A stretch of 64,000 nucleotides of DNA from Streptosporangiales bacterium (GTDB lineage Bacteria; Actinomycetota; Actinomycetes; Streptosporangiales; WHST01), in contig WHTA01000024.1 of NCBI GenBank assembly GCA_009379825.1, forward strand, positions 1-64,000. Reading direction: 5' to 3'. Positions 15,995-41,702 of this stretch are shown here, piece by piece (position 1 is the stretch's first letter; each line of letters begins with the position of its first letter). Both the position numbers and the translations under genes were made by a program. Under the pieces are notes generated by a model, which worked only from the letters and a program-made list of their open reading frames with translations, did not search any database and had not been told where the DNA came from.

Positions 15995-16827
15995 AACGCG
16001 AGCCCGCCGTCCACCGGCACGACGGCGCCGGTGACGCCGCTGCTCCGCGCGCTCGCCAACCACGCGACCATGGCGGCGACCTCCGCTGGGTCGAGCAGCC
16101 GCGCCATCGGTTGCTGGCCGGCGAACTCCGCCGCCGAGACCAGGTCGTAGAGACGTGCGCTCTCGTCGAGTATCGGGGTACGGGTGGACCCGGGGCTCAC
16201 CGCGTTCGCCGTCACCCCGGTGTCACCCAGCTCGGCGGCCAGCGCACGCACCAGTCCGGCCACGCCCGCCTTCGCCGCGCAGTACGCGGCGAGCATCGGC
16301 AGTCCGCGGGTCGCCGCGGCCGATGCCACGGCGATGAACCGTCCCCGGCGCGGCGACGGTCGGCGCAGCAGGGCGGGAATCCCCACCCGCGCTAACGCGA
16401 GCACACCACCGAGGTCGACATCGAGCACCGCCTGTTCCTGCGCCCGCGGCATCTCCCACAACGGGACCCCGCCTGCGATCACCCCGGCCGCCGCCACGAC
16501 GGCCTCGACACCGCCGAAGGTGCTCTCCGCGGTGTCGACGGCGGCGGCGAGTGCGTCCAGGTCGCGCACGTCGGCCTGCACTGTGGCCACCCTGGCCGGG
16601 TCGGCACAGTCGCGCACGTCGGCCTGCACTGTGGCCACCCTGGCCGGGTCGGCACAGTCGCGCACGACGGCAGCCATCTCGTCAGGCGTCGCCATCGGGT
16701 ACGGCAGTGCCGGGTCGTCGGCGAGCCGGTCCACCGCCACCACCGACCAGCCGTCGGCCACCAGGGCGTGCACGACGGCCGCCCCGATGCCCCGCGCGGC
16801 GCCGGTCACGACGGCTGTACCGGTCAT
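15991..16827 (-). CDS. Mycofactocin-type SDR oxidoreductase with an internal 16-residue duplication
   Basis: A 278-residue short-chain dehydrogenase. It has the nucleotide motif TGAARGIG at residues 8-15, the extended segment after the second strand (DPALPYPMATPDEMAAVVR) that marks mycofactocin-coupled SDRs, the catalytic serine in VASAAAT and the YCAAK motif. The family is thought to hold NAD tightly and to use mycofactocin as the external electron carrier. Residues about 56-87 contain DCADPARVATVQADVR twice in perfect tandem, encoded by a 48-base DNA repeat. The unit lies beside the third strand of the Rossmann fold, in the cofactor-side insertion. Its ATG overlaps the EtfB stop and its stop overlaps MftF. 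Confidence 0.87.
   Translation of the reverse strand: MTGTAVVTGAARGIGAAVVHALVADGWSVVAVDRLADDPALPYPMATPDEMAAVVRDCADPARVATVQADVRDCADPARVATVQADVRDLDALAAAVDTAESTFGGVEAVVAAAGVIAGGVPLWEMPRAQEQAVLDVDLGGVLALARVGIPALLRRPSPRRGRFIAVASAAATRGLPMLAAYCAAKAGVAGLVRALAAELGDTGVTANAVSPGSTRTPILDESARLYDLVSAAEFAGQQPMARLLDPAEVAAMVAWLASARSSGVTGAVVPVDGGLAL
16562..16657. repeat. Perfect 2 x 48-base tandem repeat inside an SDR gene
   Basis: Copies at 16562-16609 and 16610-16657 are identical base for base, and the first 9 bases of the unit (TCGCGCACG) occur a third time right after. The period is a multiple of three, so the reading frame of the SDR is kept and 16 residues are repeated. Zero divergence at wobble positions points to a recent slippage or an unstable, polymorphic repeat. 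Confidence 0.95.
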
Positions 16828-17711
16828 TCGCGGCTGTCCTCCTGCGGTAGGTAACCGCCACGATCGAGGAATTCGAGGAACGCGTCAACGGCCGTCGCCG
16901 CGTCGGTCGGCCCGACGACGGTCGGCGGCTCGTGCGTGGCGAGCGCACCGGTGAGGTGCAGCACCCGGGCGCGCGGCGAGTCGCCCGCCGGCGGTCGCGC
17001 CACCTGCGTGCGCGGCCGCAGCGGGCGCGGCCGGCCGAGCCGCAGCCTCTCGTCTGGGGCCTCGCCGGAGGTTGCGCGGTACACCGGCACGGTCGCGTCC
17101 GCGGCGGCCAAGATGGCCGCCAGCGATGCGCGTCGCAGGCGTTCGCCGCCCTCGACGGAACACACCGCAGGGCGGGGAATCCGCACGATCTCACGACGCC
17201 CGCCGTCGAGCCTGCGCTCGCCCTGCAACCGGTCACCGTCGACCGCCAGCCGCACGAGTCCGAGCGCCTGCGCAGCGTCCAGCTCGTGCGCCAGGAACGC
17301 GGGCAGCGCACCGGTGCCGCGATCATCGGAACGGTCGCCGCACACCACCAACGCCGGCTGACCGACCGTGCCCACGCCGGCGACGATCGCCTGCGCGAGC
17401 GCACGCTCGTCGCCGGCGATGTCGCGTACGTAGCTGCCAGAGGTCTCCACCCGCAGGACCTCGGCGCCGACGGCCGCGGCCTGCCGCAGTGTGTCTTCCG
17501 CCGCGGGCGTGCCGGCAGCGACCGCGAGCACCCGGCCGGACCACGCCGCAGCGATCCGCAGCGCGTGCTCGAGCGCGCCCCAGTCCGCGGCCGACGCGGT
17601 GGCAGTGCGCGGCGCACGCGTCACCGCCGCCGTCAGCGGATCCACCTCGGGACGCTGGTCGGCGTGCCGCAGGCACGCCACCACGAGCGGCGTCAGCGGA
17701 GCATCAGCCAC
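16824..17711 (-). CDS. Electron transfer flavoprotein beta subunit (mycofactocin-associated type)
   Basis: About 295 residues of the ETF beta (FixA) family. Visible features are LTPLVVACLRHADQRPEVDP at the start, WGALEHALRIAAAW near residue 50, VVCGDRSDDRGTGALPAFLA near residue 125, which is the adenine-nucleotide loop region, and RREIVRIPRPAVCSVEGGE near residue 170. With EtfA it would bind FAD and carry single electrons. GTG 17711 overlaps the ferredoxin stop by 8 bases; longer versions of the frame read off-family. It is separated from etfA by fixX and fixC, all in one coupled string. The 30-40 extra residues over a standard beta subunit fall in the proline/arginine-rich stretch near residue 230. 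Confidence 0.85.
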   Translation of the reverse strand: MADAPLTPLVVACLRHADQRPEVDPLTAAVTRAPRTATASAADWGALEHALRIAAAWSGRVLAVAAGTPAAEDTLRQAAAVGAEVLRVETSGSYVRDIAGDERALAQAIVAGVGTVGQPALVVCGDRSDDRGTGALPAFLAHELDAAQALGLVRLAVDGDRLQGERRLDGGRREIVRIPRPAVCSVEGGERLRRASLAAILAAADATVPVYRATSGEAPDERLRLGRPRPLRPRTQVARPPAGDSPRARVLHLTGALATHEPPTVVGPTDAATAVDAFLEFLDRGGYLPQEDSRE

Positions 17712-18000
17712 GTCGGAACACCACGCCCTGGCCACCGTCGGGATACGTCCACGTGATCGCCCCCTCGCTGTTGCACACCTGGTAGCAGGTCCCGCACTCG
17801 AAGCACTCCTCGTAGTTGAACAGGATGCCACCGTCGGCCGTGGGTGCGAACAGGTTCGCGGGACACGCCACCACGCAGTCCTTCGTGGTGCACGACCGGC
17901 AGATGTCGGAGTCGACGGTGATGTGGGCGCGCTCGCCGACCCGGAACTCCACCGTCGCCATCCGGTCCTCGAACGACAGCTGCGACCAGCGCTCGTTCAT
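17704..18000 (-). CDS. FixX-like ferredoxin
   Basis: A 98-residue iron-sulfur protein with CRSCTTKDCVVACP near residue 34 and CFECGTCYQVC near residue 66, the FixX arrangement. FixX corresponds to the C-terminal iron-sulfur domain of eukaryotic ETF:ubiquinone oxidoreductase and works with FixC. ATG 18000 overlaps the FixC stop (ATGA), and the stop region overlaps etfB by 8 bases. It probably relays electrons from the ETF flavin to FixC and the quinone pool. Confidence 0.9.
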   Translation of the reverse strand: MNERWSQLSFEDRMATVEFRVGERAHITVDSDICRSCTTKDCVVACPANLFAPTADGGILFNYEECFECGTCYQVCNSEGAITWTYPDGGQGVVFRRG

Positions 18001-19304
18001 CGGAACACCCTCGCCGCGCGCAGCGCGTCCGCGGCCAGCTCGCGCATGGTGACACCGTGCTTCTTCGCCGCCCGGCGCAACAGCCTGAGCATCCCCGGCT
18101 TCGGGGTCGGGTTCGTCACGGTGAACATCCCCTCCACCAGGTCGCCGACGAGTCCCGGATAGCGCTGCTGCATCCGCCGCGACAACACGAGGCGCGGCGC
18201 ACCGCGCAGCCGCTTGTGATCGACCAGCACGAAGGTGCCCTTCAGCTGCCTGGTGTACGCGGACAACGCACGGCTCGACACGTCGCCGGACGCCACGGCC
18301 TGCGCGGCGGTACGCCCGGCGGCGAGCCCGGAGCCGATCGCGAAGTTCACGCCCTCCAGCCACAGCCCGGCGGCGAGCGTCATGCCCGCGGCGTCGCCGG
18401 CCACAAGCAGACCGTCGTGCTGCAACCGCGGCATCGCGTCGTAGCCGCCCTCGGGGATCAGGTGCGCGCTGTACTCCTTGACCGTCGCGCCCCGCAGGTA
18501 CGGCGCAACGGACGGGTGCGCCTTGAGGTCGGCGAGGATCGCCTCCGGCCGGGTGCGCGCCTGCACCAGGCCGTCGAGCGAGAGCACGAGGCCGATGCTC
18601 ACCGTGTCGCTGTTGGTGTAGAGGAAACCGCCGCCTGGCACGCCGTTGGTGCACCCGAGCATCTCGATGTCCAGCCCCTCGTGCCGCTGCAGCCCGAACC
18701 GCTCGTCGATGCGTTCAGGCGGCAGCCCGAGCACCTCCTTGACGCCGAGGGTGTGCGTGGACGAGTCGGCCGGCGGCAACAGCCCGGCCTCCTTGGCGAG
18801 GAACGAGTTCACGCCGTCGCAGGCGATCACCACCCTCGCCCTGAGGTCGCCGTCCGGGCGGTCGGTCCGCACACCGACCACGCGCCCCGTCTCGTCGCGC
18901 AGCAGGCCGGTGGCCACCGTCGAGGTGACCAGCCGGGCACCCGCCTCGACGGCCTTCTCCGCGAGCCAGGCGTCGAAGTTCGCGCGGTACGTGGTCATGC
19001 CGTTGTACGGCGCAGCGCCCCACGCCTCGCTGCGGAAGTCCACGGCCATCGACTGCGTGGGCGTGAGCACCATGGTGGAGCGGCGCACGACCCAGCGCTC
19101 CACCGGCGCTTCCTCCCACCACCGCGGGATCACGTCGTCGAGCACCCGGGCGTACACCACGCCGCCGTAGACGTTCTTCGACCCGGGGAACGGCCCGCGT
19201 TCCAGCAACACGACGCTGCGCCCGGCGCGGGCCAGTTGCAGTGCTGCCGCCGAACCGGCGGGGCCGGCGCCGACGACGACGGCATCGACCGTTTCGTCAA
19301 CCAT
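17997..19304 (-). CDS. FixC-like ETF:quinone oxidoreductase flavoprotein
   Basis: A 435-residue FAD protein. It has VVVGAGPAGSAAALQLARAG at residue 9 (GxGxxG), FPGSKNVYGGVVYARVL near residue 40, which is typical of the FixC/ETF-QO family, and a second FAD-contact motif LLVAGDAAGMTLAAGLWLEG near residue 316. The length fits FixC, whose iron-sulfur domain is the separate FixX encoded next. Family members take electrons from reduced ETF and pass them to a membrane quinone. It overlaps etfA by 8 bases. Inference: it connects mycofactocin-dependent oxidations to respiration in place of the GMC-type MftG, which is not present in this window. Confidence 0.88.
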   Translation of the reverse strand: MVDETVDAVVVGAGPAGSAAALQLARAGRSVVLLERGPFPGSKNVYGGVVYARVLDDVIPRWWEEAPVERWVVRRSTMVLTPTQSMAVDFRSEAWGAAPYNGMTTYRANFDAWLAEKAVEAGARLVTSTVATGLLRDETGRVVGVRTDRPDGDLRARVVIACDGVNSFLAKEAGLLPPADSSTHTLGVKEVLGLPPERIDERFGLQRHEGLDIEMLGCTNGVPGGGFLYTNSDTVSIGLVLSLDGLVQARTRPEAILADLKAHPSVAPYLRGATVKEYSAHLIPEGGYDAMPRLQHDGLLVAGDAAGMTLAAGLWLEGVNFAIGSGLAAGRTAAQAVASGDVSSRALSAYTRQLKGTFVLVDHKRLRGAPRLVLSRRMQQRYPGLVGDLVEGMFTVTNPTPKPGMLRLLRRAAKKHGVTMRELAADALRAARVFR

Positions 19305-20304
19305 GCTCCACCTCCGCAGGCACCGCGACGCCGAGCCGGCGGGCCAGCTCCACCAGGAACGCCCTGGCATCGGTGACCAGACCCAGGTCGGCCATCGCGG
19401 TCATCGGACACGAGGGGTCGGTGTTCACGCTCACCACGCGCTGCGGCTCCACGATCCCGCCGACGTGCTGGCTGGCGCCGGAGATGCCCAGCGCCACGTA
19501 CAGGTCAGGGTGCACGGTCACGCCGGTGGTGCCGATCTGCCTGGCGTAGTCCATCCACCCGGCGTCAGTGACCACCCGGGTGGCACCCGCCGACGCGCCG
19601 AGCGCCGCCGCGACCTCGGCAAGCAGCCGGTACGCCGCACGGGCCGCCTCGTCGCTGCTGCCGGCCGCGGTCAGCCCGGCACCCGCGGCGAGCACCCGGG
19701 TCGCGTCACCGAGGTCCATCGTCGCCGGGTCGGGGTCGACCACACGGACGACCTCGACGTCGCCGTCATCCGCCGGCGCCGCCGTGTCGAGCGGCACGGG
19801 TGCGGGCGCGTCGCCGGTCTCCTCCACTGCACGCACGCCAGGTACGAGGGTTGCCACCGCGGCGCCGGCAACCGCTGCCGGCACCTGCCACCGGTCGTCC
19901 AGCCGGGACAGCTGCGCGCGCACCGTATGTGTCGCGGCGTCGTAGTCGACCTGCACGGCGTTGGCGAGCAACGGGCGGTCCAACCACGCCGCCAGCCGCG
20001 GCGCGAGGTCCCTGCCGTCAGGCGACGCGGGGAACACCACCAGCGGCACGTCCCTTACGGCGTCGGCGAGCGACGCGGCCACCGCCCGCACCCGCAGCCC
20101 GGATCCGGTCTCCCGCCACCACACCTGGCGCGCGGTACGCAGTTGCTTGGCCGCGTCCGCGGCGCCGTCGCCGACCACGACGGCGGCACCACCGGCCTCC
20201 GCGACCGCCTCGTCCGCGCCGACCGGAGGTGAACCGTCGCGAGCGTACACGACGGCTACCGCGCCGCCTGGCGCGGTCACCGTCGGCCGGTCGGCAGCTG
20301 TCAC
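19297..20304 (-). CDS. Electron transfer flavoprotein alpha subunit (mycofactocin-associated type)
   Basis: About 335 residues. The C-terminal FAD-binding domain is clear: LYVALGISGASQHVGGI near residue 277, then VVSVNTDPSCPMTAMADLG, matching the alpha-subunit signature that holds the flavin. Before it, TRVLAAGAGLTA near residue 208 aligns with the first loop of that domain, although the usual GGRG sequence has changed. The N-terminal domain (residues 1-190) is more divergent. GTG 20304 overlaps the upstream OYE-type gene (GTGA). It should pair with the beta subunit at 16.8-17.7 kb. Together with fixC and fixX this makes a complete FixABCX-like set. Confidence 0.87.
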   Translation of the reverse strand: MTAADRPTVTAPGGAVAVVYARDGSPPVGADEAVAEAGGAAVVVGDGAADAAKQLRTARQVWWRETGSGLRVRAVAASLADAVRDVPLVVFPASPDGRDLAPRLAAWLDRPLLANAVQVDYDAATHTVRAQLSRLDDRWQVPAAVAGAAVATLVPGVRAVEETGDAPAPVPLDTAAPADDGDVEVVRVVDPDPATMDLGDATRVLAAGAGLTAAGSSDEAARAAYRLLAEVAAALGASAGATRVVTDAGWMDYARQIGTTGVTVHPDLYVALGISGASQHVGGIVEPQRVVSVNTDPSCPMTAMADLGLVTDARAFLVELARRLGVAVPAEVEHG

Positions 20305-22265
20305 AGCCGTACCGCCACCCGTTGACCTTCGACGACGGCCGCGTGCGCGCGCCGCGGCGTCAGGCAGTCGCCGACGCGGTGCACGGGGAAGTCCGCGTCG
20401 CGCATTGCCTGCCACAGCTCGTCCGCCGGCTGCTGGTGCCCGGCGACCACCACCCAGTCGCAGTCGCGTGTGCGGTCGGTGCCCGTCGGGTGGTGCTGCA
20501 GTGTCAGCGTCACACCGCCGTCGGCGTGCGCTGCGACGCCCATCGGCACCAGGTCGGTGGCCTGCCGGATGCCGAGCCGGTGCGCCTTCATGTTCCAGGT
20601 CTCGAGGTCCAAGGTGATGCCGAGGTCCTGGCCGACCACCATGCCGCTGGTGACGACCTCCACCCGGCAGCCGCGGTCGGCGAGCAGCTCGGCCACCGAG
20701 GTCGCCTGGTGGAAGCCGAGCTCGTCGATCACCACGACCGTGCCCTGCGGCGCCTGCCGGCCCTCCAGCACGTCGCGTACGTCCACGACGCGTTCGTTGC
20801 CCTGCGCCCACCACGGTTCGGCGGGACGCGCACCGGTTGCAAGCACCAGTGCATCCGGGCGTTCGGCGCGCAGGAAGTCGGCGTCCACCTCGTGGGTGGT
20901 CTGCACGTCCACACGCACTTCCCGGGCCGCGGCGATCAGGTTGCGCACGATGTCGAGGAACTCGGCGCGGCTCGGCACGCTCGCCGCCACCTGCACCTGC
21001 CCGCCGAGCCGATCGTGCCGTTCGAACAGCGTGACGTGGTGGCCGCGCTCGGCGGCCGTGACCGCTGCCTGCAGGCCGCCAGGGCCGCCGCCGACCACGT
21101 ACACTCGCAGTCCGCGGCGCCGCGGCGCCGGCAGTGGTACGGCTTCCCTTCCGGTACGCGGGTTCTCGATACAGCCGAGCCAGCGGTTCAGCCCCATCCG
21201 GCCTACGCACTCCTGGTTGCACGACAGGCAGGTGCGGATCTGCGTCGCGTGGCCGGACCGTGCCTTCGCGGCGAACTCGGCGTCGGCGATCTGCCCGCGC
21301 ACCACACCGACCAGGTCGCACTCCCCTGCGGCAAGCGCGCGTTCGGCCTGCAACGGGTCCTTGAACCGGCCGACGCCGACGACCGGCAGGTCGACGGCCG
21401 CGCGGATGGCGCTCGGGATGTACATCGCGTACCCCGGCGGCACCTGCATGCTCGCCTCGATCATGTAGAGCGTGGCCGTCGCGACGCCGATCGAGGTGTT
21501 GATGTAGTCGACCGCTCCTGTCGCCTCGACCATCCGCGCGACCTGGACGGCCTCGTCGATCGTGGTGCCGCCGTCGATCAGCTCGTCACCGCACAACCGC
21601 ACGCCGAGCGCGCGGTCGCTGCCGATCGCCTCGCGTACCGCCTCGACGAGCTGCAGCAGCAAGCGCGCGCGGTTCGGCAGCGAACCGCCGTAGTGGTCGG
21701 TGCGCTCGTTGGTCGCAGGCGAGAGGAAACCGCGCACGATGGAGGAATGCGAGCACTGCAGCTCGACGCCGTCGAAACCCCCGGCGATGCAGTGCCCGGC
21801 CACCCGCGCGTAGCCGGCGACGATCTCCGCGATCTCGTGTTCTTCCACGGCCTTCGGCACTTCACGGAACAGCGGGTCGGGCACCGGGCTCGGCGCCCAC
21901 ACCGGCAGCCGGGAGTACATGCTGGACGCCTGGCCGCCGTTGTGGTTGAGCTGCGCGAGGATGGGCACGCCGTGCGCGTGCACGGCGCCGGTGATCCGTC
22001 GGTAGCCGGGCACAACCGCGGGATCGAAGCCGTGGATGAGCTTCTCGTACGGCCAGTCTGTGGGGTGCGTCGAGTGCTCCTCGGTGACGATCAAGCCGGC
22101 ACCGCCGGCGGCGCGCGCGGCGTAGTAGGCCGCGTGCTGCTCGCTCGGTCGCCCCTCCGTCGCGTAGTTCGTCAGGTGCGCGGAGAACACGACCCGGTTC
22201 TGCACCGTCAGCGGACCGATCCGCAGCGGCGAGAACAGATGTCGGTACCTGCCGGTCGCACTCAT
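20301..22265 (-). CDS. Mycofactocin-system FadH/OYE-family flavoprotein oxidoreductase (second copy)
   Basis: A 654-residue enzyme of the 2,4-dienoyl-CoA reductase / trimethylamine dehydrogenase type. An N-terminal FMN TIM barrel (residues about 1-340) contains LFSPLRIGPLTVQNRVV, ILAQLNHNGGQAS and FLSPATNERTDHYGGSLPNR. A 4Fe-4S motif CLSCNQECVGRMGLNRWLGC lies near residue 345. A Rossmann domain follows, with VVGGGPGGLQAAVTAAERG near residue 390. Electrons would move between FMN, the cluster and a FAD/NAD domain. It overlaps both the small monooxygenase-fold gene upstream and etfA downstream by 4 bases. The reaction in mycofactocin systems is not known; a role as an electron entry or exit point to the ETF set is possible. 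Confidence 0.87.
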   Translation of the reverse strand: MSATGRYRHLFSPLRIGPLTVQNRVVFSAHLTNYATEGRPSEQHAAYYAARAAGGAGLIVTEEHSTHPTDWPYEKLIHGFDPAVVPGYRRITGAVHAHGVPILAQLNHNGGQASSMYSRLPVWAPSPVPDPLFREVPKAVEEHEIAEIVAGYARVAGHCIAGGFDGVELQCSHSSIVRGFLSPATNERTDHYGGSLPNRARLLLQLVEAVREAIGSDRALGVRLCGDELIDGGTTIDEAVQVARMVEATGAVDYINTSIGVATATLYMIEASMQVPPGYAMYIPSAIRAAVDLPVVGVGRFKDPLQAERALAAGECDLVGVVRGQIADAEFAAKARSGHATQIRTCLSCNQECVGRMGLNRWLGCIENPRTGREAVPLPAPRRRGLRVYVVGGGPGGLQAAVTAAERGHHVTLFERHDRLGGQVQVAASVPSRAEFLDIVRNLIAAAREVRVDVQTTHEVDADFLRAERPDALVLATGARPAEPWWAQGNERVVDVRDVLEGRQAPQGTVVVIDELGFHQATSVAELLADRGCRVEVVTSGMVVGQDLGITLDLETWNMKAHRLGIRQATDLVPMGVAAHADGGVTLTLQHHPTGTDRTRDCDWVVVAGHQQPADELWQAMRDADFPVHRVGDCLTPRRAHAAVVEGQRVAVRL

Positions 22266-22573
22266 CCGACCACGACGCCCTTGCCTGGGTCGCCGAGCGG
22301 CACCGGCGACATGATCACCACGTCCGCCTGCCGCTCGGTCCTGCCGTTCAGCCCCGCGTTCAGCTCAACGATGGTGGGACCGTCCAGGTGCGCCTGCAAC
22401 GCGTCGCCTGACGTCCACTGCTCCACCAACACCAGCCGGTCGTCGGCCTCGTGCAACGCGTACAGCTCGCAGCCGTCCTCCTCGTGCACCTTCGGTACGA
22501 CGGCACGGAACACGTCGACGACCGCCTGCCGGTGCTCCGCCTTCGGCCAGATCGTCGCCACTACGGTCGGCAT
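22262..22573 (-). CDS. Antibiotic biosynthesis monooxygenase (ABM) fold protein
   Basis: A 103-residue dimeric alpha+beta-barrel type protein: MPTVVATIWPKAEHRQAVVD forms the first strand and helix, DGCELYALHEADDRLVLVEQW the middle strands, and LQAHLDGPTIVELN the second helix. ABM proteins are small, cofactor-free or heme-binding oxygenases and isomerases. ATG 22573 has GGAGG 8 bases upstream. It sits between the VWA gene and the second OYE enzyme in the mycofactocin operon, with a 4-base overlap to the latter. Its role there is unknown. Confidence 0.75.
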   Translation of the reverse strand: MPTVVATIWPKAEHRQAVVDVFRAVVPKVHEEDGCELYALHEADDRLVLVEQWTSGDALQAHLDGPTIVELNAGLNGRTERQADVVIMSPVPLGDPGKGVVVG

Positions 22574-22591
22574 CTCCGCCACCTCCACTCG

Positions 22592-23473
22592 TCAGTCACC
22601 GAACATCTCGCCCAACGCCGGCGCGACGTCGCGGTGGGTGCGTACCCGGAACACACGGCCGCGGCCGGCAGCCGCCAGCTCCCTGCCGAGCTCGACGTCG
22701 TGCTCCCCCGCGACGTCGAGCAGCACGTCCAACCGCGGCACCCGGCCGGCGAGCGGCCGCGGGTCAGGCCCGGCGTTGTGCACGCAGTCGGACAGCAGCA
22801 CCACCCGTGCGTCCCTCGCCGGTACCCGCGCGAGCTGCCTGGCCGCCGTCTGCAACGGGAACGCGACGTTGGTCAACCCCTTCGCCGGTATCCGCAACAG
22901 TGCGTCGAGCAGAGCGAGCGGCTCGAACCGGTGGCCGAGCTCCAACAGCACGGCGGCGTCGGACCAGAACGCGATCACCGCGACGTCGTCCCTGCGCAGG
23001 TCCGCGCTCAACGCGCCGACCGTCGCCGCGGCCGTACGCACCCGCTCGCCGCGCATCGAGCCGGAGACGTCTACGGCGAGCACCACACTGCGCCTGGTAC
23101 GGCCCCGCTCGCGCACCACGATGTCCTCGTCGTCGGGCACCGGCCGCTTGGTGAGCACCTCGAGCGTACGGTCCAGGTCCACGTCGTCCGACCCACCGCG
23201 GTACCTGACGCTCGCCAGCTCACCGCTGCCGCGGCGCGCGCCCGGATCGCGGCGCGGCCGACGTACGGCGAGACGGGCGGCGATCTGCCGCGCGCGTGCC
23301 CGCACCGCGGGGTCGGGCCCCTGCCCCTCCGCGGGCAACGGGACCAGCTCCGCGCTCTCCTCGGTGAAACCGGCCGCCGTGCCGCCGCCGTCGCGCGGCT
23401 GCCTGGCGGACCGGTCACCTTTGCCGGTCAGCACCAGGCCACCACGGCCGGTCCTGGCCTGCTGGAAGAGCAT
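22592..23473 (-). CDS. VWA-domain protein, CoxE/NorD-like partner of MoxR
   Basis: About 293 residues. The VWA domain begins near residue 135 with VVLAVDVSGSMRGERV, an intact MIDAS (DxSxS), followed by VAVIAFWSDAAVLLELG and VVLLSDCVHNAGPDPRP. Before it, a basic region (VRARARQIAARLAVRRPRRD) is typical of the CoxE/VWA-containing partners of MoxR ATPases. ATG 23473 was chosen because GGAGGAA lies just upstream; the frame stays open to the MoxR stop, but the first residues of that longer form are low in family character. MoxR-VWA pairs insert metals or remodel redox enzymes in other systems (CoxD/CoxE, NorQ/NorD). Its client here is unknown. Confidence 0.78.
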   Translation of the reverse strand: MLFQQARTGRGGLVLTGKGDRSARQPRDGGGTAAGFTEESAELVPLPAEGQGPDPAVRARARQIAARLAVRRPRRDPGARRGSGELASVRYRGGSDDVDLDRTLEVLTKRPVPDDEDIVVRERGRTRRSVVLAVDVSGSMRGERVRTAAATVGALSADLRRDDVAVIAFWSDAAVLLELGHRFEPLALLDALLRIPAKGLTNVAFPLQTAARQLARVPARDARVVLLSDCVHNAGPDPRPLAGRVPRLDVLLDVAGEHDVELGRELAAAGRGRVFRVRTHRDVAPALGEMFGD

Positions 23474-23578
23474 CGGTTCCTCCGTCAGCTGTTTCGGTTT
23501 CCTGCGCAACGGCCGCGCTGCGTGCGCCTGCCGGGGCGGCCCCTGCCGCTGCACCGGCGAATCGGCGGCGACGGCTCT

Positions 23579-24526
23579 TCACCCCGGCGCCGCCATCGCC
23601 GGCCGCAGCACGAACTGGTCCTCCCAGATCTGCCGCAGCACCTGTTCCGGTGTCACCTCCGCCGCCTCGTCCAGGTGGATACGACCGCTCAACGCGACCA
23701 CCATGGCATCGAAGACCAGCTCCGGGTAGCGCTCGTCGTCGCACCCGGCGAGGCCGGCGAGTCCAGCGAGCTGCTGCGCGACGAGCACCAGGTCGATCGC
23801 CCCGCGCACGCTGCTGCCCTGCCGTACGTCCTCGTGGGTACGCGTCGCCCTGGTGACCGCGACCGCGTCGGCCACCAGCCGGTCGCCGAGCGGATGCGGT
23901 CCCGCCCCGCCGTCGACCGCGCGCAGCGTGACGATGCCGCGTTCTGCCTCGTCGTCCTGGTAGTCCACGGACAGCCGGCACAGCCGGTCGTGCACGCTCG
24001 TGGACAGCCGCGTGGTGCCGATGTTGTCGTACGGGTTCATCGACGCGATCACCCGGAACGTCGGCGCCGCAGCGATCGCGCCGACCCGCGGCACCACGAT
24101 CTCTCGGTCGGCCATCGCCGTGAGCAACGTGTTCACGGTGTCTTCCGGCGCACGGTTGAACTCCTCGATGTAGAGGAAGCCGCCCTGCCGCATGGCCGCG
24201 ACCAGTGGCCCCTCGACGAAGTTCTCCGCACTGTAGTCCTCGCGCAGAACCCGCGCGGGGTTGTGGTGGCCGACGAGCTTGGCGGGGGTGAGGTCGGCGT
24301 TGCCCTCCACGAACATCAGTGGGATGCCCCAGTCGGACGTGATCGCCTTGAGCATGGTGGTCTTGCTGGTGCCGGGCGGTCCCTCCAACACGATGTCGCG
24401 CCCGGCCGCAACCGCGGCGAGCACCAGATCCAGCTCACGCCGCCTGCCGACCAACTGCCTGCCCACCCGCTCGCGTACCTCCGCGAGCGAACCTGCCCGC
24501 ACGAGCCCGTCAGCCCCTTCGCGCAT
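23579..24526 (-). CDS. MoxR-family AAA+ ATPase
   Basis: A 315-residue AAA+ protein. Walker A is LEGPPGTSKTT near residue 47, Walker B is GGFLYIEEFNRAPEDTVNTL near residue 112, and sensor-1 lies in FRVIASMNPYDNIGTTRLS. An arginine-finger candidate is in VHDRLCRLSVDY. ATG 24526 follows a perfect GGAGG at 4-5 bases. It is 16 bases from the last of the tandem SDR genes and is followed by the VWA gene after 105 bases. MoxR ATPases act as chaperones maturing metal or cofactor enzymes. In this operon it may mature an OYE, ETF/Fix or SDR component; that is inference. Confidence 0.87.
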   Translation of the reverse strand: MREGADGLVRAGSLAEVRERVGRQLVGRRRELDLVLAAVAAGRDIVLEGPPGTSKTTMLKAITSDWGIPLMFVEGNADLTPAKLVGHHNPARVLREDYSAENFVEGPLVAAMRQGGFLYIEEFNRAPEDTVNTLLTAMADREIVVPRVGAIAAAPTFRVIASMNPYDNIGTTRLSTSVHDRLCRLSVDYQDDEAERGIVTLRAVDGGAGPHPLGDRLVADAVAVTRATRTHEDVRQGSSVRGAIDLVLVAQQLAGLAGLAGCDDERYPELVFDAMVVALSGRIHLDEAAEVTPEQVLRQIWEDQFVLRPAMAAPG

Positions 24527-24542: not shown

Positions 24543-25358
24543 TCACTTCTTGTTCGTGAAGCCGGCGTCGACCGGGACCGTGATGCCGGTGACGTACCTG
24601 GCGTCGTTGGAGACCAGCCAGACGATCGCGTTGGAGATGTCGACCGGCTCCACCATGTCGACCGGCAACGCGTTCGCCATCGCCTTCGACAGCGCAGGGT
24701 CGGACTCGATGAACGCACCGATCGCGTCGTTGAGCACCATCGGCGTACTCACACCGGTCGGGTGCACGGTGTTCACTCTTATGCTGTACTGCGCGAGGTA
24801 GTTCGCGTACGACCGCATGAGTCCCACCACGCCGTGCTTCGCGGCCGTGTAGCCGAGGCCGCCGGGTGTGTTCCCGCCGATGCCGTTGAGTCCCGCGGTC
24901 GAGCTGGTCAGCACGATCGCACCACCGGCACCGCGCTCGATCATCGACGGGACAGCCACCTGCACCGTTTGGTACACGCCGGTGAGGTTGACGTCCACGA
25001 CGTCCTGCCACTCCGCTTCCTGCGGATCGAGCGACAACGGCGCGATGCCCGCGTTGGCCAGCACGATGTCGACCGGACCGAGCTCCGCGACACCGGCGTC
25101 GAACACGGCCTGCAACGCGCCACGGTCGCGTACGTCGGCTTCGCGGGCGACGATCCGCCGGTCCAGTGCCTCGACCTGTTTCGCCGTGTCCGCCAGGTCG
25201 TCCGGCGTGGACATCGGATACGGCACGGTGTCGATCTGCCCGCAAATGTCGACACCGATGATGTCCGCGCCCTCTTCCGCCAGCCGCACCGCATGACTGC
25301 GGCCCTGCCCCCGCGCCGCCCCCGTGATGAAAGCAACCTTGCCGTCAAGCTTGCCCAT
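24543..25358 (-). CDS. Mycofactocin-coupled SDR oxidoreductase (array copy 1)
   Basis: A 271-residue SDR with TGAARGQG at residues 13-20, the mycofactocin-type insertion [20 protein letters not shown] after strand two, LANAGIAP, catalytic serine in LTSSTAG and YTAAK as the YxxxK motif. This group is described as nicotinoprotein dehydrogenases that hold NAD and pass electrons to mycofactocin; many oxidise alcohols, including terpenoid alcohols of the carveol type. It is the fourth and last of a tandem array transcribed from 27.9 kb. An 84-base patch at its 5' end is nearly identical to copy 2 although the rest of the genes differ. The C-terminus ends AGFTNKK. Confidence 0.9.
25257..25340. repeat. 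84-base patch shared with the neighbouring SDR gene (82/84 identical)
   Basis: This segment of SDR copy 1 matches 26100-26183 of SDR copy 2 with only two mismatches, whereas flanking bases diverge on both sides. The segment encodes the Gly-rich NAD motif region. The pattern suggests recent gene conversion or a fresh duplication limited to this region. Confidence 0.85.
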
Positions 25359-25370
25359 GGTGGTGCCTCC

Positions 25371-26201
25371 TCACTTGATCACGCAGCCGGCGTCGACGGG
25401 CAGCGCCACTCCGGTGATGTAGCGCGCCTCGTCGGATGCCAGGAACAGCAACGCGTTGCTGATGTCGCGGGCCTCGACCCACTTGACCGGCAGCGCGTTG
25501 AGCGTCATGAACGCCTCGACGGCGTCGTCGACCGTCGGCGACTCCAGGTCGGGCCGGAAGAGCCGGTAGGTGGGCTCGTTCAGGATCATCTCGGTGCCCA
25601 CCGTCGTCGGGCAGATCGCGTTCACCCGGATCGACTTGGGCGCGAGTTCCAGCGCGAGTGTCTTCATCAGGCCGATCAGGCCATGCTTGGCGGACGTGTA
25701 GTGCGCGACGTTCGGGTGCGCCATCAGGCCCGCCGCCGAACTCGTGATGACGATCGAACCGCCGTTGTCGCCTGCGACCAGGTGCGGCGTCGCAGCCTTG
25801 CAGGCGTGCCACACCCCGGTCAGGTTGATGTCGATCATGTCCTGCCAGGTCTGCTCGGCGAGCTCGTCGGCCGGCCCCAGCGAGTTGATCCCGGCGTTCG
25901 CGGACACGATGTCCAACCGGCCGAGCTGCGCTACGCCGTCGTCGACGGCGGCCTGCAGCGCCCCGAAGTCGCGTACGTCGGCCTGGGTGGCGATGATGCG
26001 CCGGTCGAGCGCCTCGACCTCTTTCACCGTCTGTGCCAGGTCGTCTGGCGTGGACATCGCGTACGGCACCGAGTCGACCTGCGCACAGATGTCGACCGCG
26101 ATGATGTCCGCGCCCTCTTCCGCCAGCCGCACCGCATGACTACGGCCCTGCCCCCGCGCCGCCCCCGTGATGAACGCAACCTTTCCTTCTACACGCCCCA
26201 T
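25371..26201 (-). CDS. Mycofactocin-coupled SDR oxidoreductase (array copy 2)
   Basis: A 276-residue SDR. It carries TGAARGQG, the extended [21 protein letters not shown] insertion, VSANAGINSLG, serine in ITSSAAG and YTSAK. The region around residues 195-235 (TVGTEMILNEPTYRLFRPDL) differs from the paralogs, so the substrate pocket is probably different. ATG 26201 has a GAGGAGC ribosome site. It lies 12 bases from copy 1 and 26 bases from copy 3. It is presumed mycofactocin-dependent from the insertion and its operon. Confidence 0.9.
   Translation of the reverse strand: MGRVEGKVAFITGAARGQGRSHAVRLAEEGADIIAVDICAQVDSVPYAMSTPDDLAQTVKEVEALDRRIIATQADVRDFGALQAAVDDGVAQLGRLDIVSANAGINSLGPADELAEQTWQDMIDINLTGVWHACKAATPHLVAGDNGGSIVITSSAAGLMAHPNVAHYTSAKHGLIGLMKTLALELAPKSIRVNAICPTTVGTEMILNEPTYRLFRPDLESPTVDDAVEAFMTLNALPVKWVEARDISNALLFLASDEARYITGVALPVDAGCVIK
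26100..26183. repeat. 84-base patch shared with the neighbouring SDR gene (second copy)
   Basis: Counterpart of 25257-25340, offset by 843 bases. The two mismatches are a G/A within the GACTGCGG/GACTACGG step and an A/C within GAAAGC/GAACGC. The equivalent segment of copy 3 (around 26943-27016) is visibly more diverged. Confidence 0.85.
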
Positions 26202-26227: not shown

Positions 26228-27034
26228 TCAGCGGATGGTGTTGCCGGCGTCGACGGGATGCATCACGCCGGTAACGTAGCGCGCCTCGTCGGAGGCGAGG
26301 TGCAGCACGGCGTTGCTGATGTCCCTGGGGTCGACCATCTCCACCGGGTAGGTGTTCATGAAGACCGGGCCGAGCGTCGGGCTCGACTCGATCAACGGGT
26401 TGAGGCCGCCGAGACCCTCGGCCATCGGCGTGTCCACACCCGTGGGGTGCACGGTGTTCACCCTGATGTGGTGCTCCGCGAGCTCGTTCGCCAACGACCG
26501 CGCGATGCCCACCACGCCGTGCTTCGCCGCGACGTACGGTGCGAGGAACGGCAGTCCCTTGATGCCCGCTGTCGAGCTGGTGATCACGATCGAGCCGCCG
26601 CCGGCGTCGATCAGGTGCGGGATCGCCGCGACACAGGTGTGCCAGACCCCGGTGAGGTTGATGTCCAGCGTGGACTGCCACGCCTGCGGTGTCACGGCGT
26701 CCCAGGTCTGGATGGTGCAGATCCCGGCGTTGGCCGCGACGATGTCGAGCCGGCCGAGCTGGGCGACGCCGTCGGCGACCGCCGCCTGCAACGCGTCGAG
26801 GTCCCGTACGTCTGCCTCGCTGGCGACGATCCTGCGGTCGAGCGCCTCCACATCCTTCACGGTCTCCGCCAGGTCTTCGGCCGTCGCGGTCGCGTACTTC
26901 AGTCCTGGCACCGGTTCCGAGATGTCCACTGCGATGATGTCCGCGCCTTCCTCGGCCAACCGCACCGCATGACTGCGACCCTGGCCACGGGCGGCGCCGG
27001 TCACGAATGCGACCTTGCCTTCCACACGCCCCAT
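26228..27034 (-). CDS. Mycofactocin-coupled SDR oxidoreductase (array copy 3)
   Basis: A 268-residue SDR with TGAARGQG, a slightly shorter insertion (DISEPVPGLKYATATAEDLAET), AANAGICTIQTW, ITSSTAG and YVAAK. The HPTGVDTPMAEGL segment after the catalytic lysine shows the substrate loop. The start ATG 27034 shares a 20-base leader with copy 2 (the GAGCACGCAATG context), which again suggests duplication. It is 26 bases from copy 2 and 35 bases from copy 4. A mycofactocin-dependent alcohol dehydrogenase role is inferred. Confidence 0.9.
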   Translation of the reverse strand: MGRVEGKVAFVTGAARGQGRSHAVRLAEEGADIIAVDISEPVPGLKYATATAEDLAETVKDVEALDRRIVASEADVRDLDALQAAVADGVAQLGRLDIVAANAGICTIQTWDAVTPQAWQSTLDINLTGVWHTCVAAIPHLIDAGGGSIVITSSTAGIKGLPFLAPYVAAKHGVVGIARSLANELAEHHIRVNTVHPTGVDTPMAEGLGGLNPLIESSPTLGPVFMNTYPVEMVDPRDISNAVLHLASDEARYVTGVMHPVDAGNTIR

Positions 27035-27069: not shown

Positions 27070-27924
27070 TTACTCGACTGGTGCGTGGTTGAAGCCGGGC
27101 AGGACGGTGTGTCCGGCGTCGACGGGTACGGCGATGCCGGTCACCGCGGAGGCCTCGTCCGAGACCAACCACAGCGCGGCGTTGGCGATGACCTCGGGCG
27201 GCATGAAGCCGTGCCCCTTCAGGGCGTGGAAGTGCCGGCCGCCGCGTTCCAGGTCGGCACGGGTGCCGCCGGGATGGCCGGCCATCATGTCGTACGCGCC
27301 CTGCCAGTTGGTCATGCCGGTGTCGATCGCGCCAGGGCACACGGCGTTGCACCGTACGCCGTGCGGCGCGAGCTCGAGTGCGCACGTGCCCATCAGGCCG
27401 ATCACGCCGTGCTTCGCCGAGACGTAGTGCGCGTAGTTCGCGCCAGGCTCGAGGCCGTTGACCGACGACGTCATGACGATCGCACCCTTGCCGCGCTCGA
27501 TCATGTGCGGTGCCACGGCCTTCGCCGACTTCCACACACCGGTGAGGTTGACGGCGAGCATGTCGTCCCACATCTGCTCGGACATCTCCCAGAACGGTGC
27601 GAGATTGTGGATGCCGGCGTTCGCGATGAGGACGTCGATCTGCCCGAGCTCGGCGATACCTCGCGCCACCGCCTCGTCGAGCTGCTTCTGCTCCCTTACG
27701 TCGGCCTGGATGCCGAGCACGCGCCGGTCCAGCTCCTCGACCTTGGCGACCGTCTCGGCGAGGTCGTCCGGGGTGGACATCGGGTACTCCACCGTCGCGA
27801 TCTGGTCCGCGATGTCGGTGGCCACGATGTCGGCGCCCTCGCGGGCGAGCGTGAGCGCGTGCGCTCGTCCCTGTCCCCGTGCGGCCCCGGTGACCAGTGC
27901 CACCTTGCCGTCCAACCTGCCCAT
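27070..27924 (-). CDS. Mycofactocin-coupled SDR oxidoreductase (array copy 4, first in the array)
   Basis: A 284-residue SDR, the most divergent of the four. TGAARGQG is followed by GRAHALTLAREGADIVATD, the insertion [36 protein letters not shown] and YVSAK. An insertion after residue 205 (GAYDMMAGHPGGTRADLERG) makes a larger lid than in the paralogs. The C-terminus is extended (GHTVLPGFNHAPVE). ATG 27924 follows a strong GGAGG. It lies 23 bases after the first OYE gene. Confidence 0.9.
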   Translation of the reverse strand: MGRLDGKVALVTGAARGQGRAHALTLAREGADIVATDIADQIATVEYPMSTPDDLAETVAKVEELDRRVLGIQADVREQKQLDEAVARGIAELGQIDVLIANAGIHNLAPFWEMSEQMWDDMLAVNLTGVWKSAKAVAPHMIERGKGAIVMTSSVNGLEPGANYAHYVSAKHGVIGLMGTCALELAPHGVRCNAVCPGAIDTGMTNWQGAYDMMAGHPGGTRADLERGGRHFHALKGHGFMPPEVIANAALWLVSDEASAVTGIAVPVDAGHTVLPGFNHAPVE

Positions 27925-27947: not shown

Positions 27948-29870
27948 CTAGTGGATTCCCCCTACGAGCTCGCGCTCGTCGCTGATTCGTGCTGCGCACC
28001 TGCGGCCTTCGAGTACGGCCTCGAGCGCGGTGCGTGGCGCCACACAGTCGCCGGCCCGCGTCGTGCCTGGACGGGCGAGGTAGAGCGTCTCCTCGGGCAG
28101 CCGCGGCCCGCAGTCGACGAACACCGCGCCGGGCACCGTACGCCGTTCCCCGGTCCAGACGTCCTCGACGACCACACCATCGACGACGCGCTCCACCACC
28201 CGCGCGCGCAGCTCGCGCCGCACCCCCGCGCGCTGCAGCCGGGTGTTCGCGTCGGGCAGGTCGCCGGTCAGCGACAGCAGCGTGCCGACTACCGGGTCGC
28301 CGGTGACGATGGCGACCTCCCTGCCCGCTTCTGCGAGCCACTCGGCGACACCGACACCCACAGGTCCGCCGACCGGGTCGTGCACGACGACCGGCCCGTC
28401 GGGCAGGGTCTCCGCGCCCCGTTCGAGCACGCCGAGCGCGTCGGTGCCGTCGGACACGCGTGGCCGCGACCCGGTGGCGAGCACCACGGCAGTGCCGGAC
28501 GCCGCTGCCTCGTCGAGGGTCTCGGCCGTCGCCTCGGTGTCGAGCCGGACGCCCACGCCGAGCCGCCGGCACTCCGCGGCCAGCCAGTCGGTCAGGAGCG
28601 CCAGCCTCGTACGCCCTGGACCGACCGCGGCCGCACGCAACGCGCCGCCCAGCCGCGGCGCGCGTTCGACCAGCCGCACCCGGTGCCCGGAGGACGCCGC
28701 CACGCGGGCACATTCAAGGCCCGCGGGCCCGCCGCCGACCACCAGCACGTCCCGGGCAGCGGCGTCGATGGCCCGCTCTTCTGTCTCGTGTCCGCTGCCC
28801 GGTTCCCCGATGCAGCTGACGATCGGGTTGCGCGCGTCGCGCACCTGGCACGCCTGGTTGCACAGCACGCACGGCCGCGCCTGTGCACCGCGTCCGTCGC
28901 GCAGCAACGCCACCAGCCGCGGTTCGGCGATCTGTGCCCGGGTCATCTCCACCAGGTCGGCGACGCCGTCGACGACCGCCGCCTCCGCGTCCGCGGCGTC
29001 GACCACGCTGCCCTGCAGCACCACCTGCGTACGCCCGTCCGCTGTCGCGCGCAGCTGCCGGCACAGCTCACGGTTGAACGCGGGCAGGGTGTGCGCGTCC
29101 GGGCGGTACGCCGAGGTCGAGTACGGCCCGCCACGCACGACCACGAGCAGGTCGACCAGGTCGGCGAGCGCGTCGACGTGCTCGGCCGCGTGGTCCGGTG
29201 TGATGCCCGCCCACGGCGCGAGCTCGTCGCAGCACATCCGCAGCGTGAGCACGTGCTCCGCGCCCAGCCGTTCACGTACCGCGGCGATCACCTCCCGGGT
29301 GAAGCGCAGCTTGTCCGTGCCGTACTCGTCGCCGCGCAGGTTGCTCAGCCCCGACTGGAACTGGCGCAGCAGCGAGAACGCACCGGCGTCGAGCTCGACG
29401 CCTGCGAGCCCCGCGCGCACGGCGGCCGCCGCGGCGTCGGCGAACCCGGCCACCACCTCGTCGATCTGCGGCTGCTCCATCTCCGCCGGCAGCTCACGGG
29501 TGTTGGCGTCGGGGAACCGCGACGGCGCCCACAGCACCGACTGCGAGTACGCGCTCGAACCCTGCCCACCGGCGTGCCCGAGGCCGGCGAGCACCACCGT
29601 GCCGTACGGCTCACACGCCGCGGCGATCTCGCGCCAGCCGGGCTCGCACTCGGCCGCAAGTGGCGCCCGTTCGTACGGCCAGTCGTCGGCGTGCACCGAC
29701 GCCGTCTCCGTGACGAGTACGCCGGCGCCGCCGGCCGCCCGCCGCTCGTAGTACGCCGTGTGCCGGCGCGAGAACGCCCGCCCGCTGCCCAGGTTGGTCA
29801 CGTGCGGACCGAAGACCACCCGAGACGGCGCTCGCCTACCCCCTGTCGCCACCGTCTCGGTCAGCCGCAT
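27948..29870 (-). CDS. Mycofactocin-system FadH/OYE-family flavoprotein oxidoreductase (first copy)
   Basis: A 640-residue paralog of the enzyme at 20.3-22.3 kb. The FMN barrel has RVVFGPHVTNLGSGRAFS near residue 17 and VVLAGLGHAGGQGSS, the iron-sulfur motif CVLCNQACQVRDARNPIVSC lies near residue 335, and the FAD domain has VVGGGPAGLECARVAASSG. The barrel loop that in relatives reads FLSPxxNxRTDEYGGS is altered to FQSGLSNLRGDEYGTDKLR, losing one glycine of the usual pair, so catalysis may differ. It lies 9 bases behind mftC and directly before the SDR array. Its biochemical role in mycofactocin metabolism is unknown. Confidence 0.86.
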   Translation of the reverse strand: MRLTETVATGGRRAPSRVVFGPHVTNLGSGRAFSRRHTAYYERRAAGGAGVLVTETASVHADDWPYERAPLAAECEPGWREIAAACEPYGTVVLAGLGHAGGQGSSAYSQSVLWAPSRFPDANTRELPAEMEQPQIDEVVAGFADAAAAAVRAGLAGVELDAGAFSLLRQFQSGLSNLRGDEYGTDKLRFTREVIAAVRERLGAEHVLTLRMCCDELAPWAGITPDHAAEHVDALADLVDLLVVVRGGPYSTSAYRPDAHTLPAFNRELCRQLRATADGRTQVVLQGSVVDAADAEAAVVDGVADLVEMTRAQIAEPRLVALLRDGRGAQARPCVLCNQACQVRDARNPIVSCIGEPGSGHETEERAIDAAARDVLVVGGGPAGLECARVAASSGHRVRLVERAPRLGGALRAAAVGPGRTRLALLTDWLAAECRRLGVGVRLDTEATAETLDEAAASGTAVVLATGSRPRVSDGTDALGVLERGAETLPDGPVVVHDPVGGPVGVGVAEWLAEAGREVAIVTGDPVVGTLLSLTGDLPDANTRLQRAGVRRELRARVVERVVDGVVVEDVWTGERRTVPGAVFVDCGPRLPEETLYLARPGTTRAGDCVAPRTALEAVLEGRRCAARISDERELVGGIH

Positions 29871-29879: not shown

Positions 29880-31070
29880 TCAGCGCTGCACGCCGGCCAG
29901 CGGGCTCTCGTCACAGGCCCGGTCCGGCCGCCGGCCGATCACCACGGGTACCGGCCCGGTCGGTTGCCCGCGCACCGGACCGGTGTGCGAGTGGTCGCCG
30001 GACGGCCGCGGCACGCCGGCCGGGTCGCGTGCGGACAGCGCGGACTCGCCGAAACCCTTGACGCACTCCGGGTCCGGGCCGTCGAGCGGCAGCCCGGTGA
30101 AGAACTTCGCCGCCATGCAGCCACCGCGGCAGGCGTCGTACGCCGAGCACTTGGTGCACGCGCCACCGGTCTGCGGACTGCGCAGCTCGGTGAAGAGCTC
30201 GGACTCACGCCACACGGTGGCGAAGCCGCCCTCGTCGCGCACGTTGCCGGCGAGGAACGCGTCGTGGATAGCGAACGGGCACGCGTACACGTCGCCGACC
30301 GGGTCGATCAGGCACACCACCCGGCCCGCACCGCACAGGTTGAGCCCGGGCAGTGCGTCGCCGTAACCGGCGAGGTGGAAGAACGAGTCGCCGGTGAGCA
30401 CCTGCTCGCCGTGGTCGAGCAGCCAGTCGTAGAGCTGGCGCTGCTGCTCCGCCGTCGGGTGCATGTCGTCCCAGACGTCGGCACCGCGCCCGGACGGGCG
30501 CAGCCTGGTCAGCCGCAGCTGCGCGCCGTAGCTGTCGGCGAGGGCCTTGAACTCGTCCAGCTGGCCGGCGTTCTGGCGGGTCACCACCACGGAGATCTTG
30601 AACCCGCGGAACCCGGCGGTCGCAAGGTTGTCCATCGCACGCAGCACGGTCTCGTACGAGCCGCCGCCGCGGACGGCGTCGTTCACCTCGGCGGTCGCGC
30701 CGTCCAGGCTGAGCTGCACGTCCACGTAGTCGCTGCCGGCCAGCCAGCGTGCGACGTCCGGGGTGATCTTGACGCCGTTGGTGGAGAACTTCACGCCGAC
30801 GTGGTGCGTCGTGGCGTACTCCACCAGGTGCCAGAAGTCCGGTCGCACGGTCGGCTCGCCGCCGCCGATGTTCACGTAGAACACCTGCATGCGTTCGAGC
30901 TCGTCGATCACCCGCTCGCACTCCGCGGTGGACAGCTCGCGCGGGTCGCGCCTGCCGGAGCTCGACAGGCAGTGCACGCACGCCAGGTTGCAGGCGTACG
31001 TCAGCTCCCAGGTGAGGCAGATCGGCGCGTCCAGCCCGTACTGGAACTCGTCCACCAGCCGGCCGGTCAC
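29880..31070 (-). CDS. mftC: Mycofactocin radical SAM maturase MftC
   Basis: About 396 residues. The radical SAM cluster motif is CNLACVHC near residue 23, followed by IGGGEPTVRPDFW and the C-terminal SPASM cysteines (CGAGRVVC, YACPF, CTKCSAYDACRGGC, and a final C in PECVKGFG). MftC oxidatively decarboxylates the C-terminal tyrosine of MftA and then crosslinks it to the preceding valine. GTG 31070 overlaps the MftB stop (GTGA). The proline/arginine-rich tail after residue 345 is longer than the core needs. It is the clearest marker that this locus is a mycofactocin cluster. Confidence 0.95.
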   Translation of the reverse strand: MTGRLVDEFQYGLDAPICLTWELTYACNLACVHCLSSSGRRDPRELSTAECERVIDELERMQVFYVNIGGGEPTVRPDFWHLVEYATTHHVGVKFSTNGVKITPDVARWLAGSDYVDVQLSLDGATAEVNDAVRGGGSYETVLRAMDNLATAGFRGFKISVVVTRQNAGQLDEFKALADSYGAQLRLTRLRPSGRGADVWDDMHPTAEQQRQLYDWLLDHGEQVLTGDSFFHLAGYGDALPGLNLCGAGRVVCLIDPVGDVYACPFAIHDAFLAGNVRDEGGFATVWRESELFTELRSPQTGGACTKCSAYDACRGGCMAAKFFTGLPLDGPDPECVKGFGESALSARDPAGVPRPSGDHSHTGPVRGQPTGPVPVVIGRRPDRACDESPLAGVQR

Positions 31071-31357
31071 GACTCGCTCCTCGGCTCGATCATCGTCGAC
31101 GCCGCCAGACTGGCCAGCGCCCGCTCGTACGCGGGCAGCTCCGCGGCCGGCACCCCCGCCGCGGTGCACGCGGCGCGGCCGGACGGGTGCTCGTCGAGCG
31201 CACGCACGACTCCGAGCAGCGTGCTGCTCTTCAGGAACGACAGCCGGCGGGTGCCGAAGTGGTAGAGCAGCGCGCCGAACCGTTCCGGGCGTACCGAGAC
31301 GCTGGGGTGCAGCTGGTACGGCTGGTCGAGGTCGAAGTCGGCGGTTACGGCGGCCAT
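31067..31357 (-). CDS. mftB: Mycofactocin peptide chaperone MftB
   Basis: A 96-residue RiPP-recognition (PqqD-like) protein. YQLHPSVSVRPERFGALLYHF is the typical N-terminal beta region, and LSFLKSSTLLGVVRAL the central helix. MftB binds the MftA leader and presents it to MftC. Its ATG shares one base with the mftA stop (TGATG) and its stop overlaps mftC, so the three biosynthetic genes are tightly coupled. Longer forms of this frame run into mftA and are not used. Confidence 0.93.
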   Translation of the reverse strand: MAAVTADFDLDQPYQLHPSVSVRPERFGALLYHFGTRRLSFLKSSTLLGVVRALDEHPSGRAACTAAGVPAAELPAYERALASLAASTMIEPRSES

Positions 31358-40394: not shown

Positions 40395-40419
40395 CGATGC
40401 CCCACCGTCTCTCTCGCAG

Positions 40420-41616: not shown

Positions 41617-41683
41617 CCGTCACCCCCAACCAGCGACGCTGCTGTTGCCCCCCAGAGTCTAGGTCGGGTGGCGGCCGCCAGCC

Positions 41684-41702
41684 AGCCCCTGCGCGCCGGG
41701 CT
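41684..41702 (-). terminator. Weak hairpin at the end of the TTT-led operon
   Basis: AGCCC (41684-41688) and GGGCT (41698-41702) can pair around an 8-9-base loop at the acyl-CoA dehydrogenase stop, next to a TGGCGGCCGCCA palindrome upstream. There is no T-run, so if it ends transcription it is of a GC-rich, non-classical kind. Confidence 0.22.

Follow-up and report, generated by a model that had tools for sequence, protein, structure and literature searches.

Introduction

Pairs consisting of a MoxR-type AAA+ ATPase and a VWA protein are already known as helpers of several enzymes. The CbbQ-CbbO pair combines a MoxR motor with a MIDAS-bearing VWA adaptor, both encoded directly downstream of the client, and different rubiscos are served by different specific isoforms, each encoded downstream of its own rubisco (PMC4660213). 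In NorQ-NorD, whose task is iron insertion into the membrane nitric oxide reductase, a finger of the VWA protein acts inside the pore of the motor (PMC13036017). The client of CoxD-CoxE is a Cu-Mo enzyme. MoxR-VWA helpers are also present in PQQ methanol dehydrogenase operons, where the neighbouring dehydrogenase depends on a cofactor derived from a peptide; the client there differs in being a periplasmic quinoprotein.

The NDMA-dependent zinc alcohol dehydrogenases of TIGR03989 and the short-chain dehydrogenases (SDRs) of TIGR03971 are exclusive to mycofactocin genomes and form mycofactocin-dependent classes (Haft, PMC3023750). Our literature search found no article linking mycofactocin to MoxR or VWA. 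In the literature searched, the two terms mycofactocin and MoxR occurred together in just one article, on prophages and antibiotic resistance of Mycobacterium chelonae (with one and two occurrences), and AAA and VWA proteins are unmentioned in the key mycofactocin literature.

The locus described here lies in a 64,000-nucleotide stretch of DNA from a Streptosporangiales bacterium (contig WHTA01000024.1), called the window below. Like CbbQ-CbbO, it encodes a MoxR motor and a MIDAS-bearing VWA protein directly downstream of the proposed clients; unlike the described systems, its operon, as annotated, contains no gene for rubisco, nitric oxide reductase or CO dehydrogenase.

Results

Mycofactocin operon of the window

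The following features were assigned.

14636..15928, minus strand: MftF glycosyltransferase (TIGR03965, 340 bits)
15991..16827, minus strand: mycofactocin-coupled SDR, subfamily 2 (TIGR04504, 353 bits)
16824..17711, minus strand: mycofactocin-associated ETF beta (TIGR04503, 316 bits)
17997..19304, minus strand: FixC-like ETF-quinone oxidoreductase (FixC-type models, 316-330 bits, under their cut-offs)
19297..20280, minus strand: mycofactocin-associated ETF alpha (NF038209, 406 bits)
20301..22265, minus strand: FadH/OYE family oxidoreductase 2, OYE2 (TIGR03997, 999.6 bits)
22262..22588, minus strand: small ABM-fold protein after the VWA gene (PF03992, 55.7 bits)
22592..23473, minus strand: VWA protein of 293 aa, MIDAS complete (Pfam VWA_2, VWA_CoxE; GGAGG before ATG 23473)
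23579..24526, minus strand: MoxR-type AAA+ ATPase, MoxR1, 315 aa (Pfam AAA_5/AAA_3, motifs, NorQ/CbbQ structural match)
24543..25358, minus strand: mycofactocin-coupled SDR, proposed client (TIGR03971, 385 bits; next gene upstream of MoxR, separated from it by 16 bp)
25371..26201, minus strand: mycofactocin-coupled SDR, proposed client (TIGR03971, 420 bits)
26228..27034, minus strand: mycofactocin-coupled SDR, proposed client (TIGR03971, 380 bits)
27070..27924, minus strand: mycofactocin-coupled SDR, proposed client (TIGR03971, 365 bits)
27948..29819, minus strand: FadH/OYE family oxidoreductase 1, OYE1 (TIGR03996, 939.7 bits)
29880..31070, minus strand: MftC radical SAM maturase (TIGR03962, 668.6 bits)
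31067..31357, minus strand: MftB (gene call; clusters with MftB proteins from other loci)
31357..31479, minus strand: MftA precursor with the C-terminal end IDGMCGVY (ORF listing)
31629..32240, plus strand: MftR regulator, divergent (PF17754 MftR C-terminal, 148 bits)

With mftA, mftB, mftC, mftF, mftR and five SDRs, this is a genuine mycofactocin operon. Reading from the mftA end, the order was mftA, mftB, mftC, OYE1, the four TIGR03971 SDRs, MoxR, VWA and the ABM protein, followed by OYE2, ETF alpha, FixC, ETF beta, the TIGR04504 SDR and mftF, with mftR divergent. The position given for the pair in the initial annotation, between the SDR array and the OYE/ETF genes, was confirmed, with SDRs upstream and OYE2 and ETF/FixC downstream. 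The closest solved structures to the SDR at 24543..25358 were those of the carveol dehydrogenase group (3sx2/3t7c/3uve), whose SDRs hold NAD buried and without exchange (PMC5264612).

In three loci (window 22262-22588, L090 and L094), the gene immediately following VWA encoded a small ABM-fold protein. Elsewhere in the window, a catabolic cluster occupied 39552-46767 on the minus strand, with PEP-hydrolase-like, UPF0261, acyl-CoA dehydrogenase and MmgE/PrpD genes and two family III CoA-transferases.

Domains, motifs and predicted folds of the pair

The MoxR protein matched Pfam AAA_5 and AAA_3 with 82.8 and 56.8 bits, respectively, and carried Walker A (GPPGTSKT), Walker B (IEEFNR), sensor 1 (SMNP) and an SVRG motif. 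The Walker A/B, sensor 1 and SVRG columns were invariant or nearly so in an alignment of 32 members. The VWA protein matched VWA_2 (48.3 bits) and narrowly passed the cut-off of VWA_CoxE (27.0 bits vs 26.4), a likeness to CoxD-CoxE. All five MIDAS positions of the DxSxS-T-D pattern (D135-S137-S139, T201, D229) were present and invariant in 28 aligned members. Intact Walker motifs and an intact MIDAS, both noted initially from the sequence of the window, were found to be kept in these aligned members. The likeliest start of the VWA protein was ATG 23473 behind GGAGG (293 aa), with GTG 23554 as a possible alternative (320 aa).

The AF2 model of MoxR (pLDDT 90.7) gave NorQ and CbbQ as the best Foldseek matches, the top one being NorQ 9qh9 (TM 0.69/0.84), and CbbQ2 was also among the top structural matches. 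The protein is an AAA+ ATPase of the MoxR kind with a NorQ/CbbQ-like fold. The VWA model (pLDDT 81, core >90) resembled many VWA domains and aligned with the VWA domain of NorD over 255-273 columns, a longer stretch than for other VWA matches. The window protein of ~290 aa differs from CbbO, which has ~770 aa and a large N-terminal region, and from NorD, which has an extra N-terminal domain and a linker. None of the curated NCBIfam models GvpN, MadB, CobS and BchD scored above its cut-off (best GvpN, 73.9/266.8 bits; MadB, 45.2/475), and judging from such profile searches neither protein is covered by a curated family. An anti-phage function of the pair was considered and rejected, PADLOC having given just weak P-loop matches.

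Conservation and co-occurrence with mftC

A homologue scan with MoxR, using one genome per species, yielded 80 loci at 64-81% identity, in Microbacteriaceae, Micrococcaceae, Geodermatophilaceae, Nocardiaceae, Streptomycetaceae and other families. Genes in these loci were called by a purpose-built codon-usage caller and checked by tblastn. Most loci shared a single order, with divergent mftR, then mftB and mftC, between one and six SDRs, MoxR and VWA, and finally mftD, mftE and mftF. Chance is excluded as the origin of the arrangement because 60-80% identity and a conserved order were seen in scores of species. Across Actinobacteria, this comparison shows the MoxR-VWA pair to be a conserved satellite of mycofactocin systems and a regular part of their operons. 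The pair had at first been described as inserted into the operon, a word that does not fit, as it belongs regularly to such operons and is not special to the window genome.

Tabulation of co-occurrence with mftC, which the initial annotation had proposed, was carried out in Actinomycetota (198 class genomes and 396 phylum genomes, plus plasmids) and was strongly positive. In the class sample, mftC was over cut-off in 59 of 198 genomes, and the MoxR/VWA clade was present in 15 of 198, all 15 within those 59. In the phylum sample, 52 of 396 genomes had mftC and 29 of 396 had the clade, a count that leaves out three distant homologues (42-43% identity); 27 of the 29 possessed mftC, one of them broken, and the other two genomes were 87% and 89% complete. 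The Fisher p values of ~4e-9 (class) and ~3e-25 (phylum) are overstated, related genomes not being independent. In these samples the pair is almost restricted to genomes with mftC. The broken mftC lies in G442 (contig 1, 4043545-4044547), split across frames beside an intact mftD by an assembly error or as a pseudogene; this genome, once counted as lacking mftC, was reassigned on that account.

A further check covered 28 genomes with the pair, most of them selected for a locus without mftC; in 25 of these genomes mftC was over cut-off somewhere. The other three (loci L032, L040 and L078) had lost mftB, mftC and mftE and kept the SDR-MoxR-VWA block, mftD, mftF and mftG; perhaps their hosts use a cofactor that is scavenged or of another kind. 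Partial mft loss of this kind has been reported for a Herbiconiux (PMC11778925). An actinobacterial SDR-MoxR-VWA block on a 3.4-kb contig of a Mucilaginibacter MAG (L047) was probably contamination and was excluded as an instance of spread beyond Actinobacteria.

Mycofactocin SDRs adjoining the pair

In 70 of 81 loci, the gene immediately preceding MoxR, and on its strand, was a mycofactocin SDR; stop and start codons of the two genes overlapped by 4 bp in 18 of them, and all 37 adjacent SDRs sampled matched TIGR03971. The pair was apart from any SDR in ~10 of the 81 loci. The arrangement was also seen in public annotation of a Rhodococcus qingshengii plasmid, where a mycofactocin-coupled SDR, MoxR (4 bp overlap) and VWA form a cassette without biosynthesis genes close by, and on an R. 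ruber plasmid, where mycofactocin-coupled SDRs flank the pair. On the SDR tree, the members adjoining MoxR were dispersed (35 changes, no fewer than 23 of them forced), which rejected a single SDR ortholog as the client and indicated that the pair goes with the SDR family. In L223 and L224, tandem MoxR genes followed the SDRs, the second one fused or adjacent to VWA.

A paralogous pair beside zinc dehydrogenases

A paralogous MoxR-VWA pair, with MoxR ~47% identical, was found in the class sample and was near mft genes in some genomes. Its upstream gene was a TIGR03989 zinc dehydrogenase in seven of eight class cases, an identity foretold from gene length before the profile scan was made. Among the zinc dehydrogenase neighbours scanned, 27 of 28 matched TIGR03989 at E<1e-100. 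In the phylum sample, an SDR or TIGR03989-type gene was immediately upstream of a clade MoxR in all 28 other genomes.

Most TIGR03989 genes were without an adjacent MoxR. Those linked to MoxR clustered on the TIGR03989 tree (5 changes vs 19 in shuffles), so that the pair accompanies only some TIGR03989 proteins. About three quarters of the mftC genomes in the window's own class were also without the pair, and since most of these genomes and most TIGR03989 genes go without it, the pair is not generally required. The third nicotinoprotein class, TIGR04266, was over cut-off in 4 of 42 genomes and by coordinates was never next to MoxR. None of four control MoxR genes checked in the same genome adjoined a mycofactocin dehydrogenase, and none of the three distant phylum homologues had one directly upstream.

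Some other arrangements were observed. L117 (G085 contig 59) has MoxR2-VWA without a neighbouring dehydrogenase, with linalool dehydratase/isomerase-like and SnoaL-like genes upstream. Behind zinc dehydrogenase-MoxR-VWA, L110 (790-8024) and L119 carried genes for a BluB-like nitroreductase, for a small protein and for an acyl-CoA ligase, and then a thiolase/lipid-transfer gene; these clusters lie ~9-15 kb from mft genes and resemble part of a catabolic pathway.

Correspondence between the pair and the dehydrogenase class

On the MoxR tree, the members linked to zinc dehydrogenases and those linked to SDRs separated almost cleanly, with 3 changes between SDR and ADH labels and ~19 for the ADH group when labels were shuffled; this was a quick tree whose deep branches were modestly supported. 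In the VWA protein, the loop that follows the final Asp of the MIDAS read VHNAG in SDR-linked members and, in almost all of the separate ADH-linked members, R(A/S)T; judging from this pattern, the loop could be the site where client choice is set. MoxR and VWA were fused into one protein in several lineages.

OYE genes and MftD

OYE1/OYE2 and MftD were mutually exclusive, as no mftC locus contained both, 50 having MftD only and 8 OYE only. The OYE loci were the window (20301-22265 and 27948-29819), L111, L202, L203, L209, L215, L217 and L221. TIGR03966 (MftD) was over cut-off in none of the 8 OYE genomes, including that of the window, and in 9 of 10 other genomes tested. The OYE proteins may replace MftD. 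In Saccharopolyspora, mftD is missing and TIGR03997 is present (PMC11162802), and S. erythraea makes methylated mycofactocin.

Discussion

The dehydrogenases adjoining the pair are very likely its clients, and comparison of genomes suggests that the pair probably serves as a remodeller, driven by ATP and dedicated to mycofactocin-dependent nicotinoprotein dehydrogenases; in the window these would be the tandem TIGR03971 SDRs. Adjacency of genes is an association and does not of itself identify what is remodelled, and the argument is a comparative one. SDRs and zinc dehydrogenases are different families, of which one contains a metal, but both are nicotinoproteins that retain NAD and hand electrons on to mycofactocin. 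A helper common to the two is best explained by the cofactor trapped in both. We infer, by elimination, that the task is the loading or renewal of NAD(H), a reading that falls a little short of an even chance and is the likeliest task because one class of clients is the metal-free SDRs. The MIDAS of the VWA protein would bind the dehydrogenase, which the MoxR hexamer, driven by ATP, would then briefly open by twisting or pulling through the VWA protein. This opening would load, renew or free the buried, non-exchanging NAD(H), and the enzyme would thereby be put into, or returned to, a form that mycofactocin can reoxidise; release of a dead-end form would resemble the freeing of rubisco by CbbQ-CbbO.

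The initial annotation had instead named the Fix complex or the iron-sulfur OYE proteins as candidate clients. Their genes directly follow the pair in the window, but among the 71 mftC-bearing loci examined OYE genes were present in 8 and ETF/FixC in 3, the pair being linked to dehydrogenases where both were absent. These neighbourhood counts, set against the dehydrogenase that adjoins the pair in most loci, led to the rejection of such clients, and maturation of these proteins is accordingly very improbable. Maturation of a mycofactocin biosynthesis enzyme (MftC, MftD, MftE or MftF) would suit the many Microbacteriaceae in which the pair lies between the SDRs and mftD-mftE-mftF. It is nevertheless improbable in view of cassettes away from the mft biosynthesis genes, with a dehydrogenase as sole neighbour, of the loci that lack mftB, mftC and mftE and still hold the pair, and of the class mftC genomes, most of which do without it.

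Insertion of a metal, as by NorQ/NorD (iron) or CoxD/CoxE (copper-molybdenum), would here mean zinc in the dehydrogenase; the TIGR03989 clients are zinc enzymes, but the SDR family, the other client class, needs no catalytic metal, and we regard this task as hardly probable. It is the best-studied task of MoxR-VWA pairs (PMC13036017). The same evidence on clients that speaks for NAD(H) loading is shared by a reading in which the pair opens or assembles the dehydrogenase for oligomer assembly, or for access of mycofactocin to the buried nicotinamide. This is a possibility of some weight, yet an unlikely one, as SDRs and MDR dehydrogenases do not normally need a helper for their assembly. Mycofactocin is a large, oligoglycosylated molecule (PMC7491314), which favours the access variant; most mftC genomes, however, lack the pair and yet presumably use mycofactocin.

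As to the preferred reading, a nicotinoprotein remodeller, the analogy with CoxD/CoxE, NorQ/NorD and CbbQ/CbbO drawn initially held for the parts and for the fold, with NorQ and CbbQ as top matches, and did not extend to the clients then proposed. The resemblance to CbbQ-CbbO includes isoform pairs matched to structurally different clients, the difference being that the client there is rubisco. While MoxR-VWA pairs as such were known, the nicotinoprotein class of client is new. Tentatively, the pair can be considered a nicotinoprotein activase, which would be the first AAA+ machine that opens NAD-trapping dehydrogenases to load or swap buried NAD(H). On this same tentative reading, its paralogous pairs would have come to match two unrelated dehydrogenase folds, which would have nothing in common but the trapped cofactor and the use of mycofactocin to accept electrons.

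Mycofactocin has been dissected for more than 10 years with regard to its precursor, maturases, glycosylation, MftG and regulators, and the literature searched contained no energy-consuming helper of its dehydrogenases. With a pair found behind two unrelated classes of nicotinoprotein, it becomes directly testable how nicotinoproteins that do not release NAD acquire it, and likewise what becomes of damaged or trapped NAD. Speculatively, the pair may also help when such dehydrogenases are to be produced as active enzymes in other hosts.
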